A stretch of DNA of 42,807 nt, taken from NCBI GenBank assembly GCA_021162685.1, contig JAGGYF010000031.1, forward strand, positions 1 to 42,807, read 5' to 3'. Positions 23,764 through 27,522 of this stretch are shown piece by piece. Source of the stretch: Candidatus Iainarchaeum sp. (GTDB lineage: Archaea; B1Sed10-29; WALL01). Numbering within the stretch: the first letter of the stretch is position 1; each line of letters opens with the position of its first letter. Both the position numbers and the translations under genes were made by a program. The notes under the pieces are model-generated. The model was not told where the DNA came from. It made no database searches and was given only the letters and a program-made list of their open reading frames with translations.

Positions 23764-24108
23764 ATGCACAGAATTGTATTATTGAAGATTGGTGGGAAAA
23801 GGTTGCAGCTAATAAAGATTGTTGGTGCGCTAATTGTTTGCGCTGCTTCCTTGGGTGTCCTTGATTCTATAGCTACGCTCTTTAGGATAATAAAACAGGT
23901 TGAGATTGCTAAGACCAGCGAACAAATTGCGTTATCTGTATTTGGGCTGCCACCAACAGCACTAACAAGTGATGTGGTCATGGGATTTTTTATGCTCCCA
24001 ACAGCGATATTTATGCTTTGGCTTGCTGTTTTTGTAATAGGGGCAATGGTATACAGAAGTGGTGGCGTTATCCTCCCAGTAGAGGAAAATGTTGAGATCT
24101 CAAAGTGA
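23764..24108 (+). CDS. Small membrane protein of unknown function
   Basis: From ATG 23764 the product has 114 residues, with hydrophobic segments at about 17-40 and 72-95 and short hydrophilic ends. I do not recognise the family. GAGGTGG at 23746-23752 could serve as ribosome binding site, but a TATA-like run overlapping 23733-23745 would put transcription start at the ATG, so the start is uncertain. A GTG at 23749 is in frame. Its end overlaps the convergent dnaG by nine bases. Confidence 0.6.
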   Translation: MHRIVLLKIGGKRLQLIKIVGALIVCAASLGVLDSIATLFRIIKQVEIAKTSEQIALSVFGLPPTALTSDVVMGFFMLPTAIFMLWLAVFVIGAMVYRSGGVILPVEENVEISK

Positions 24109-25326
24109 TGCGCCAACCACTATTGTTTTTACCTTCTTTGGTTTTGATATCTTTGCTTGCTTCAAGCCGACAAGCTTTGCTATTCCTTTTGAGTCCGCGA
24201 GTTCAACAAGCCTCTGTGTTATTATTCCATCAAACACAACTGCGTATATGCCCTTTGTATTCTTTATGGCATCTATCATTTCCGCAACTGGAACCTCTGC
24301 TATTACCTCATTGTTTTTGTTCACTAGTGCTGCCATCATACTTCCTTTTAATCCATCGTATATGTGCAATAGCCTCTCATCTTCTGGTTTTATGATGTGT
24401 CTATACTTTTCTCTTCTCCTTGTTGCAGTTCTCTGTGTCTGCCTCCTCTTTCTAAATTCAGGTCTCCTTGTCTGCTTTTTGATAGGTATCCTCAATGAAC
24501 TAACTTGTTTTAAGAACCTGTCCACTGGCATCTTATTACGTAGACATTTTATAATCTCCTTTTTCGTTAGCTCTTCCACCTCTTTTCCGTCTGGCGCTTT
24601 TGCAACATAATCTACTGCTCCTTCATAAACTAGCTGAGCAACGACCATGTCTCCTCCTCTATCCCCATCAACAAATGCTGTTACCTGTTTTTTCTTTGCC
24701 AATTCCACAACTGTTCGCGGTATCTTTTGTCCACTTAGTGCTATAACGTTTTTTATACCATAACTCAGAAGATTTAAAACATCTGCTCTTCCTTCAACAA
24801 CTATAATCTCCTCTGATGTATCTATATCTGGCCCTGCAGCCAACTTTTCCCTGCCATACTCTTGAAGCTCTGCCATCTTTGCCTCTGCTCTTACCTTTTC
24901 TGATATCTCCTTGCTTTCTGGGATTGTCTCTTCCATTTTCTCCAAAAGTTCTTTTGCTCTCTGGACTACAAACTGTCTCTTCGTTGAACGGGTGTCCTCT
25001 ATCTTCTCCACTGTTATCTTTGCTGTACACGGTCCTACTCTATCAACTGTTTCAAGTGCTGCTGCAATGATGGATGTCTCTGCCCTATCAAGAGAACTTG
25101 GGACAATGATGTGACCTATTGTTTTGCCACTCTTTGTCTCAACTGTTACCTCTATTCTTCCTATTCTGCCAGATTTCTGAAGTTCTCTTAGGTCAAGATC
25201 CTCTCCTAAAAGTCCCTCTGTTTGGCCAAAGATTGCTCCAACAATATCTGGCTTCTCCACAATGCCATCAATCTCTACTTTTCCTTTTATAACATACTTT
25301 ACTGTATCAATATACGTCTTGCCCAT
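24100..25326 (-). CDS. dnaG: Archaeal DnaG-like primase (Toprim domain)
   Basis: The 408-residue protein has the archaeal DnaG N-terminal part (KYVIKGKVEIDGIVEKPDIVGAIFGQTEGLLG), a Toprim domain with IIVVEGRADVLNLL near residue 172 and AFVDGDRGGDM near 217, and a basic stretch (RRPEFRKRRQTQRTATRRR) before a C-terminal domain. Archaeal DnaG has been linked both to primer synthesis and to exosome-mediated RNA turnover. It is the last gene of a set with UPF0292 and UPF0235, twelve bases after the former. Confidence 0.95.
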   Translation of the reverse strand: MGKTYIDTVKYVIKGKVEIDGIVEKPDIVGAIFGQTEGLLGEDLDLRELQKSGRIGRIEVTVETKSGKTIGHIIVPSSLDRAETSIIAAALETVDRVGPCTAKITVEKIEDTRSTKRQFVVQRAKELLEKMEETIPESKEISEKVRAEAKMAELQEYGREKLAAGPDIDTSEEIIVVEGRADVLNLLSYGIKNVIALSGQKIPRTVVELAKKKQVTAFVDGDRGGDMVVAQLVYEGAVDYVAKAPDGKEVEELTKKEIIKCLRNKMPVDRFLKQVSSLRIPIKKQTRRPEFRKRRQTQRTATRRREKYRHIIKPEDERLLHIYDGLKGSMMAALVNKNNEVIAEVPVAEMIDAIKNTKGIYAVVFDGIITQRLVELADSKGIAKLVGLKQAKISKPKKVKTIVVGASL

Positions 25327-25338
25327 AAATATCTCCTC

Positions 25339-25719
25339 CTATTCTTCTCTTATTTCTTCTATGATTTTGGGCAAGTCCTCGAATTGCACAACTCCAACCA
25401 GCTTGTTTAATTTTTCTCTATATGAGAGATCTGGTTGGATAGCCTCATTCAAGAAAAAGTTCTTGAGTTTTTCAGCAGCTTTATTTCCAAACGGGTCAAG
25501 ATCTGTTAGGATTATTGCTTTCTTCACGCCCTTCTGTGAAAGTGCCTGTGTGAGTTCACTGAGGGTTGTCTTGGAGAGTGTCATAATCTCACCATGCAAC
25601 CCTAGTCTGCTCAACGCTTTTTTGTCATTTATACCTTCAACGATAATCGGAACGCCCTGCAATAGTTCGTATTGCAGGTCATCCAATATCCTATCTATTT
25701 TGTCTCCCTTTGTCATCAT
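25339..25719 (-). CDS. UPF0292 family Toprim-domain protein
   Basis: The 126-residue protein is a stand-alone Toprim domain with PIIVEGINDKKALSRLG (catalytic Glu) and AIILTDLDPFGNKAAEKL (the DxD motif). This fits UPF0292, an archaeal family related to the RNase M5/primase Toprim fold whose substrate is unknown. The ATG overlaps the UPF0235 stop (ATGATGA), and dnaG follows after twelve bases, which hints at a nucleic-acid role. Confidence 0.88.
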   Translation of the reverse strand: MMTKGDKIDRILDDLQYELLQGVPIIVEGINDKKALSRLGLHGEIMTLSKTTLSELTQALSQKGVKKAIILTDLDPFGNKAAEKLKNFFLNEAIQPDLSYREKLNKLVGVVQFEDLPKIIEEIREE

Positions 25720-25994
25720 ATCCTTAATTTGTTTTTTATTTCATCTATTGTTAGGCCTTCAACAAGAATCCTCTTCTTGTTTGAACCAAGGCCAGATATG
25801 ATCTTGACTTCAGTATCAAGAACCTTTCTCAAATGGGCTAGCAATTCTCGGTTTGCCTTGCCCTTTTTTGGTTCACTCACCACCTTTATTTTTAGTTCTT
25901 TTGTCCACTCATCCACACCAACAATGCTGAATGCATCTGCGTTTGTGATGACGTGGACATCAATAACTACCCCAAAAGGGGTCTGAGTAAACAT
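25716..25994 (-). CDS. UPF0235 (DUF167, YggU) family protein
   Basis: The 92-residue protein has VVIDVHVITNADAFSIVGV, then EPKKGKANRELLAHLRKVL and IISGLGSNKKRILVEGL, the DUF167 pattern. The function is unknown. It is first in the UPF0235-UPF0292-dnaG set. Its ribosome binding site GGTGAT (26000-26005, minus strand) lies within a small hairpin next to the H/ACA RNA. Confidence 0.9.
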   Translation of the reverse strand: MFTQTPFGVVIDVHVITNADAFSIVGVDEWTKELKIKVVSEPKKGKANRELLAHLRKVLDTEVKIISGLGSNKKRILVEGLTIDEIKNKLRI

Positions 25995-25995
25995 A

Positions 25996-26014
25996 ATACA
26001 TCACCAGGATGTAT
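25996..26014 (-). promoter_or_regulatory. Hairpin covering the ribosome binding site of the dnaG set
   Basis: On the minus strand ATACATC (26014-26008) pairs with GATGTAT (26002-25996) around the five-base loop CTGGT. The ribosome binding site GGTGAT is half in the loop and half in the 3' arm, and the ATG of UPF0235 follows one base later. It may limit translation. The hairpin begins where the upstream H/ACA RNA ends. Confidence 0.45.
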
Positions 26015-26130
26015 GTTGCCCCATTGTAACACCCTCCTTCATAGCATATGCTTAGAGGGCTGACCAATGGGGCTGTACTGTTTCTTGTTGACTACCTCCT
26101 CATGAATCAGAGGTGTCACCCAGAAACAGC
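26014..26130 (-). ncRNA. Two-hairpin H/ACA guide RNA (candidate)
   Basis: Reading the minus strand, hairpin 1 has outer stem CTGTTTCT/AGAAACAG (26129-26122 with 26085-26078), inner stem ACCTC/GAGGT and an 11-base apical loop TGATTCATGAG of K-loop type. The trinucleotide ACA follows one base after the stem (26076-26074). Hairpin 2 has outer stem GCCCCATTG/CAATGGGGC (26073-26065 with 26026-26018), inner stem CCCTC/GAGGG and a further palindrome AGCATATGCT at the tip. ACA again follows one base later (26016-26014). The internal loops lie about 14-16 bases from each ACA, as expected for pseudouridine guide pockets. A TATA-like run is upstream at 26152-26161. Confidence 0.72.
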
Positions 26131-26151
26131 ATTTATATTTGCAGTGGTTAT

Positions 26152-26161
26152 TGTTTATAAA
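26152..26161 (-). promoter_or_regulatory. TATA-like element upstream of the H/ACA RNA
   Basis: The minus-strand run ATTTATAAAC lies 25-30 bases before the predicted 5' end of the H/ACA RNA and after the stop of the 4-CBS gene. A second AT-rich run (CAAATATAAAT, about 26131-26141) is too close to serve the same start. Confidence 0.5.
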
Positions 26162-26181: not shown

Positions 26182-26979
26182 CTATTTTGATGCCACGTAT
26201 TTTGTTATGTCTGTTTTTGTAATTATGCCATTTAATACATTTTTTTCTGAAACAATGACGCTTCCAACCCTCTTTTTAATCATAAGGTGTGCTGCTGTAG
26301 CTGCATCCGATTTTGGAGCAATTTTGACCAGTTCTGTCTTCATAATGTCCTCTACGATAAGAGGGACTAGAACTACGCTCTTTCTTTTCTTATTTTTTGA
26401 TGCTCTCACAATTCTTCTAGGTCTTAATCCAAACGTGGATAATGCAATGTCCTTCTGGGAGATTATACCATAGATCGGTGGTTCCCATACAACGAGCTGC
26501 TCAATGCCATATCTCTCCATTTCTTTCAATGCATGGAATATAGATTGTTGTGGTTTGATTGTTCTGACCTTTTTCTCCATGATGTCCTTTGCTTTGATAA
26601 TGCCTTTGTAGTAACTTGCAAAATACTTTGTGAAATCTGTCTTCGTCACTATGCCCATTATCTGTTTGTCATAGACAATTATTGCATGTGCATTTTTTGA
26701 GATAAGAACCCTGGCTGCATTCTCTACACGCGTGGTTGGCTTTACTTTTACAAAAGATTTGCTCATAATGTTCTTTGCTTGTATGCTGTCAATGGGCTTT
26801 CTTGATGCGAAAAACGCATCAGCCAAATCTTTGTCTGTTATTATTCCTATTGGTTTATCCTTATCAACAACAAGAAGAGAGCTTATCTTATGTCTAACCA
26901 ACATGTTTCGTACATGTGCAACAGTATCTGTTGGTGAGACAACATAAACTCTCGATGTCATGATTGCGTGTATTTCCAT
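26182..26979 (-). CDS. Protein with four CBS domains
   Basis: The 265-residue protein is made of four CBS motifs in two Bateman modules, starting at about residues 1, 66, 131 and 208. Each has the pattern of an IM-S/K start followed by GIITDKDL, GIVTKTDFT, GIISQKDIA or GIITKTDIT. CBS pairs usually bind adenosyl ligands such as AMP, ATP or SAM and sense energy status. There is no attached enzyme domain. The gene starts three bases after the next CBS gene, so they form a pair. Confidence 0.92.
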   Translation of the reverse strand: MEIHAIMTSRVYVVSPTDTVAHVRNMLVRHKISSLLVVDKDKPIGIITDKDLADAFFASRKPIDSIQAKNIMSKSFVKVKPTTRVENAARVLISKNAHAIIVYDKQIMGIVTKTDFTKYFASYYKGIIKAKDIMEKKVRTIKPQQSIFHALKEMERYGIEQLVVWEPPIYGIISQKDIALSTFGLRPRRIVRASKNKKRKSVVLVPLIVEDIMKTELVKIAPKSDAATAAHLMIKKRVGSVIVSEKNVLNGIITKTDITKYVASK

Positions 26980-26982
26980 GTG

Positions 26983-27522
26983 TTATTCACCTGCACACTC
27001 TTCACAGAGAAGTACACCATTTACCAACCTGAGGGACTCAGAATACTCACCACATCCCTCACAGATTCCAGAAAATCGTTTTTCTGGTTGTGTGCTATAC
27101 TCACTCCTCATTTTTGCTCTTTCAGAAACTATCTCAAACAAAGCAGGGGATAATGTAATAAGGTCTGTTTCTGTGATTATCCCAACTATTTTACCATCAT
27201 CAACAACAGGTAAACGTTTTATGGATAGGTCTCTCATGATTCTCATCGCCTCTTCTACATCTGTATCTGGGGTAATTGTTCGTATAGGGTGGCTCATTAC
27301 TTCTTTTACCTTTACCTTCTTTGGGTCTTTTTCCTTGGCAAAAACCCGTTCAAGTAGATTTGAATCTGTCAATATTCCTATTGGTTTCTTCTTTTCAGCT
27401 ACAATCACTGAACCTATGTCCAAATCAACCATATACCTCAATGCTTTATCACAGGTATCATCTGGACTGACTGTTATTACTCCCTTTCTCATTGCGTCTG
27501 ATACAGGTACTCCTACTGCCAT
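26983..27522 (-). CDS. CBS-domain pair with C-terminal zinc ribbon
   Basis: Residues about 5-60 and 70-125 are CBS motifs (PIGILTDSNLLERV and VGIITETDLITL). The tail carries CEGCGEYSESLRLVNGVLLCEEC, a CxxC...CxxC zinc ribbon. Such CBS-zinc ribbon proteins occur in many archaea; the ligand and target are unknown. It is followed within three bases by the four-CBS gene and preceded by a tiny zinc-ribbon gene. Confidence 0.9.
   Translation of the reverse strand: MAVGVPVSDAMRKGVITVSPDDTCDKALRYMVDLDIGSVIVAEKKKPIGILTDSNLLERVFAKEKDPKKVKVKEVMSHPIRTITPDTDVEEAMRIMRDLSIKRLPVVDDGKIVGIITETDLITLSPALFEIVSERAKMRSEYSTQPEKRFSGICEGCGEYSESLRLVNGVLLCEECAGE

Follow-up and report, generated by a model that had tools for sequence, protein, structure and literature searches.

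The stretch of archaeal DNA analyzed here (hereinafter, the window; 42,807 nucleotides of a 1.11 Mb genome) encodes, at positions 26130–26014 of the minus strand, an RNA that, as judged from its sequence, is a two-hairpin archaeal box H/ACA guide RNA of a known kind; all elements of this RNA, its promoter and the three genes behind it lie on that strand. We consider it highly probable that this RNA is a guide for helix 69 and the A-loop of 23S rRNA, is equipped with its own TATA promoter, and also serves as the 5' leader of the mRNA for the UPF0235-UPF0292-dnaG genes. The helix-69 guide appears to be physically joined to the DnaG messenger. This arrangement, which persists in 20 or more families of archaea, suggests that a single transcript is used for rRNA modification as well as for a gene set involved in RNA decay, and offers a case in which the double role of a guide RNA as an mRNA leader can be tested.

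Structure and homology of the guide RNA

The 117 bases of the locus fold into two H/ACA hairpins, with an ACA after each, and the fold energy of the 121-nt RNA is −57.6 kcal/mol compared to a mean of −32.1 kcal/mol for 200 shuffled sequences (z = −6.9). Hairpin 1 (26077–26130), delineated by the sequence, the fold and the pair changes in relatives, consists of an outer stem of 8 pairs (GCUGUUUC/GAAACAGU, 26130–26123 with 26084–26077), the 5' pocket arm UGGGUG (26122–26117), the 3' pocket arm CAACAA (26090–26085), a tandem GA (UGA...UGA; 10 pairs above the pocket) and the K-loop UGAUUCAUGA (26109–26100); its ACA box forms the hinge (26076–26074) and is invariant in alignment A1. Hairpin 2 (26018–26073), recognized by its sequence, the Rfam HgcG alignment and a score of 56.5 bits with our model R2 (see below), has an outer stem of 9 pairs (26073–26065 with 26026–26018), the 5' arm GUCA (26064–26061), an upper stem with a k-turn-like motif (26060–26031; UAUGA at 26043–26039), the 3' arm GUUA (26030–26027) and an ACA box (26016–26014) that marks the 3' end of the guide RNA. 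In the k-turn of this hairpin, UGA is opposite AA, that is, an A-A replaces the second G-A pair, and the upper stem contains one bulge.

In both hairpins, the ANA box is located 14 nt from the top of the pocket (26090–26077 in hairpin 1 and 26030–26017 in hairpin 2), and the archaeal H/ACA rule calls for 14–15 nt between this box and the pair that closes the pocket (PMC4652768). The two hairpins had been placed here by a previous sequence-only reading, and the stems, the ACA boxes and the fold energy bear it out; the functional pocket of hairpin 1 is specified here as UGGGUG/CAACAA, with the 14-nt spacing. A smaller pocket in hairpin 1, UGGG/ACAA, would form a plausible duplex with U2555 as the target but lies 12 nt from the ACA, at variance with the 14-nt rule; we prefer the pocket with 6/6 arms because of its 14-nt spacing and stronger duplex.

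At curated cut-offs, Rfam search of the whole window yielded tRNAs only. A permissive search of the locus retrieved HgcG/Pab40, a Pyrococcus H/ACA guide (RF00064; E = 1.3e-10, 42.1 bits) whose family has its last hairpin in alignment with hairpin 2, as well as SNORA74/U19 (E = 1.4e-5, 27.9 bits, below the cut-off). The HgcG score is also below the curated gathering cut-off (42.1 vs 77 bits), such that the window RNA is homologous to this family while formally staying outside of it as curated. The 77-bit cut-off misses many apparent relatives: matches with E <= 0.001 were found in 61 of the 297 archaeal genomes, with only 20 above the cut-off. The coordinates of the match in one genome, G065 (382332–382604), are those published for Pab40 of P. 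abyssi, so this genome is evidently P. abyssi. Cbf5, the sole protein of the guide machinery that was checked, is encoded in the genome that contains the window (338.7 bits).

Model R1, built from five members of the family and order, finds the guide RNA in 10 of the 11 genomes of the order, the exception being a 61%-complete assembly. In the five-sequence alignment, 96.8% of the pair cells are standard, and 11 of the 25 pairs are changed on both sides, including 6 of the 8 pairs in the outer stem of hairpin 1; none of 500 shuffles equaled this compensatory signal, and no slid register came near it. Both ACA boxes are kept in this alignment, as is AUGA in the upper loops, with one exception, and the ANA box is present in nearly all distant relatives. 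For model R2, which represents the helix-69 hairpin alone in 14 archaea, both-side changes were detected in 9 of the 12 pairs (again, 0 of 500 shuffles). Strong folding alone would be compatible with a terminator, a riboswitch or a chance structure, but the compensatory changes, the ACA spacing, the homology to Pab40 and the rRNA targets described below all contradict such an origin, and no other Rfam family reaches the cut-off in the locus; we consider the probability of this explanation negligible.

rRNA targets and guide-target co-evolution

Every uridine of the 16S and 23S rRNA from the same genome was scanned as a potential target, and each pocket has one clear fit in 23S rRNA. The best target of hairpin 2 is position 1984, GUAAC-[UC]-UGACC, in the helix-69 loop (5+5 bp; the runner-up is 10 kcal/mol weaker), and the single target of hairpin 1 is position 2660, GUUG-[UU]-CACCCA, in the A-loop (4+6 bp; no runner-up); shuffled pocket arms reach the respective target energies in 3 and 8 cases out of 1000. 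The equivalent E. coli positions, U1915 and U2554, were assigned by visual comparison of the conserved loop sequences. Hairpin 2 is most likely a guide for Cbf5, which would convert U1915, a uridine of helix 69 that is conserved universally, to pseudouridine, and hairpin 1 most likely guides the same modification of the A-loop uridine (U2554), both predictions coming from the complementarity of the pockets. The pseudouridines of helix 69 are among the few rRNA marks common to all domains of life, and the yeast counterpart of U2554 is a pseudouridine. Compared to the earlier proposal for hairpin 2, with arms GTCAG/TGTTA (GUCAG/UGUUA in the RNA) and a target of the form UAACA-UN-CUGAC, the arms turned out to be one base off, since G26060 and U26031 close the upper stem; the one-base-shorter pocket, which matches helix 69, was adopted, and the target becomes UAAC-UC-UGAC. 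These assignments supply targets for RNAs that are missed by the Rfam cut-off and predict an A-loop pseudouridine for the whole order.

To follow the guide and its target across archaea, we paired the guide arms with the helix 69 of the same genome in 26 genomes from 18 families, with one genome per family included in the statistic. Watson-Crick pairs occupy 104 of the 108 positions, compared to a mean of 76 and a maximum of 92 when the guides are shuffled among families (P = 5e-5, a value that is indicative only because the families are not fully independent). The guide follows no fewer than seven distinct versions of the target. The 3' side of the helix-69 target occurs as UGACCC, UGACUC, UGACCG, UGACGA, UGACGG, UGAUCG, UGAGGG, UGAGGU or UAACCC, and the guide carries the complement of the respective variant nearly always. 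On the other side, where helix 69 contains AUAAC instead of GUAAC, the 3' arm is GUUAU instead of GUUAC. For the A-loop, the guide and the target change in step in a single genome, G007 (CACCCA to CACCUA in the rRNA and UGGGUG to AAGGUG in the guide); 23S rRNA is absent from 4 of the 10 genomes of the order that carry the RNA. In G002 (locus L085) and G004 (L084), the 23S genes are unassembled, and the hairpin-1 guide UGGAUG predicts CAUCCA in the A-loop; the 3' arm of hairpin 1 in G004 is also altered, to CAACGC.

The RNA could, in principle, be a cis-acting, protein-binding leader, comparable to the 5' UTR of L7Ae that is bound by L7Ae itself, with the guide function lost and regulation of the dnaG operon as its sole remaining role. 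Its location immediately ahead of the start codon is compatible with this explanation, and archaeal L7Ae is known to repress translation via k-turns in leaders (PMC5539422). However, both pockets match functional sites of the 23S rRNA from the same genome, and the pockets co-vary with helix 69, which would be needless for pure regulation; because the pockets track the rRNA targets, we regard a purely regulatory leader as very unlikely and favor a functional guide for helix 69 and the A-loop. Taken together, the homology, the compensatory changes in relatives, the rRNA targets and the co-variation support the original identification of an H/ACA guide RNA ahead of the UPF0235-UPF0292-dnaG set.

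Promoter, probable leader role and linkage to dnaG

A TATA box, TTTATAAA (26154–26161), is located 31 bases before the first base of hairpin 1, and in all 10 members of the order that carry the RNA, the same sequence or a close variant starts 29–32 bases upstream of the first pair in the outer stem of hairpin 1. The spacing between the TATA box and the transcription start in archaea is known, and with the TATA box at −29 to −32, the expected start coincides with the 5' base of the RNA. At the other end, the ATG of the UPF0235 gene is 20 bases past the last ACA (2–60 bases in most relatives). The sequence-only reading had described both the TATA box at the right distance upstream and the 20-base gap before the first gene, and was correct on each. 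It also proposed a hairpin across the ribosome-binding site; such a local hairpin is predicted in this genome (25996–26014; arms 26014–26008 and 26002–25996), but folding of the leaders from ten members of the order gave no consistent structure, and we rejected a conserved hairpin at this position.

The first gene behind the RNA encodes a UPF0235/DUF167 (YggU) protein (25716–25994; PF02594, 55.5 bits), and is followed by the genes for UPF0292, a small Toprim protein (25339–25719; PRK04017 family and Pfam Toprim matches), and archaeal DnaG, the exosome-associated Toprim protein (24100–25326; NF003108, 485 bits). Given that the start codon follows the ACA by 20 bases, which leaves no space for a second promoter, the RNA is best read, from this arrangement of the DNA, as the 5' leader of the putative UPF0235-UPF0292-dnaG operon; a separate promoter would have to lie within the guide RNA, and therefore a shared transcript is the simplest reading. 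In family f3 (G006 and G009), the usable start codons of UPF0235 fall within the 3' stem or on the ACA box itself. The UPF0235 coding sequence of these genomes (loci L039 and L089, respectively) apparently starts inside the guide RNA, so that GTG GGG CAA CAY would be the 3' stem and ACA box of hairpin 2 and also the first codons.

Model R2 was run against 393 genomes of archaea, plus 156 from a second phylum, and the neighbor genes were called by iterated profile searches. The helix-69 hairpin is located directly upstream of UPF0235, UPF0292 or DnaG, whichever comes first, on the same strand, in at least 20 families (f1, f2, f3, f4, f14, f22, f27, f52, f54, f71, f77, f93, f100, f104, f105, f124, f138, f141, f151 and f152; in f4, represented by G007, the linkage was read by eye from a UPF0292 start at the contig edge). 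An RNA near UPF0235 in G121, without a clear helix-69 pocket, was left out of this count. Among 80 named dnaG loci, there were two clear matches, L207 and L253, which are the already counted G009 and G201 (by identity, 'archaeon isolate Dive96_bin3.446' and Thermococci archaeon B88_G9). The dnaG upstream regions of 39 further genomes yielded only a 24.5-bit and a 13.8-bit match, and no linked RNA was found in G014 (by identity, Candidatus Micrarchaeota B47_G15, of the same class as the window). Weak R2 matches (24–27 bits) were also observed on the dnaG strand, 1.6–1.7 kb ahead of the gene, in L215 (Baldrarchaeota, 1774–1848), L260 (Bathyarchaeota, 1837–1910) and L195 (G193, 1217–1291), with the 5' arms GAGAG or AAGAG, not GUCA; those in L215 and L260, which came from the named loci and lie about 1.6 kb from dnaG, were excluded from the linkage count.

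The surroundings and the companion of the helix-69 hairpin vary. Upstream of the RNA, the window contains two CBS-domain genes (26182–27522), and in many linked genomes, CBS genes likewise lie ahead of the RNA. The first hairpin, where present, differs from that of the window in G112, G147, G201, G234 and their relatives (L050, L054, L159 and L049), several first hairpins of distant families contain GGGUCCC, and f22 and f27 seemingly have the helix-69 hairpin alone. The hairpin is located elsewhere in the genome in Thermococcales (f15), f17, f21, f31, f49, f55, f63, f69 and other families, and therefore, linkage to dnaG is not obligatory for the guide function.

These unlinked copies indicate that the guide can be a gene of its own and would be compatible with two separate, abutting units, the guide ending at the ACA and the mRNA using its own promoter. 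Against this arrangement, most linked genomes have the start codon only 2–60 nt past the ACA, and in f3 the available start codons fall within the RNA or at its end, with no space for a TATA box, and the adjacency persists in at least 20 families; we consider separate units unlikely. Under the preferred interpretation, a leader shared with the dnaG operon, the RNA would be transcribed from its own TATA promoter with read-through into UPF0235-UPF0292-dnaG, and a cut or trimming just past the ACA box would free the guide particle, so that the remaining mRNA would have almost no leader. The leader position would then entail shared expression of the guide with the three genes. A further, tentative and on balance doubtful possibility is that each transcript becomes either a guide particle or the dnaG-operon messenger, not both, with the assembly of L7Ae and Cbf5 blocking translation or triggering the cut. 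Regulatory coupling would be plausible because, in Sulfolobus, DnaG binds rRNA and allows the exosome to tail it (PMC4227792), and L7Ae represses translation via leader k-turns. If the either/or scenario is true, the expression of the exosome-linked DnaG operon would be tied both to ribosome building and to how much of the guide-RNP proteins is available, and such coupling would span many small-genome archaea.

Relation to known guide RNAs and leaders

The window RNA is related to a known family of guides from which it has diverged, and its deep linkage to dnaG appears to be new. Our literature search found no report of the A-loop companion hairpin or of a guide that is consistently located in front of the dnaG operon, as seen here in at least 20 families; this silence is weak evidence of novelty because most subscription papers lay outside the search.

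The counterparts of hairpin 2 are the third hairpin of Pab40, stem III of Pf7, Afu4.3 and Haloferax HP2. Pab40.3, Afu4.3 and HP2 target the same helix-69 site (P. abyssi U2016, equivalent to E. coli 1915), and in vitro modification of this site by Pab40 has been demonstrated (PMC2584109, PMC4652768). With Pab40/HgcG, hairpin 2 shares the pocket plan GUYA/GUUA, the ANA box, the k-turn UGA and the helix-69 target. However, Pab40 contains three H/ACA motifs, 40.1, 40.2 and 40.3 (PMC4652768), whereas the window RNA has two hairpins between the TATA box and the start codon; the companion hairpin in the window is predicted to target the A-loop rather than the other sites of Pab40; and the window RNA heads the dnaG operon, whereas Pab40 is not near dnaG. 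Human U19/SNORA74 and yeast snR191 guide the same two uridines of helix 69 (PMC2584109) but differ from the window RNA in their eukaryotic structure, genomic setting and, for the match, a score below the cut-off. In Nanoarchaeum equitans, the single H/ACA sRNA, which was detected by RNA-seq and is 159 nt long, is similar by description, with two hairpins split only by ACA, a k-turn bulge in each of them and an identifiable promoter box (PMC3491384). Finally, like the leaders bound by L7Ae, the window element is a k-turn RNA in a putative 5' leader beside a start codon (PMC5539422), but unlike those simple k-turns, which have a regulatory role only, it appears to be a complete guide RNA.
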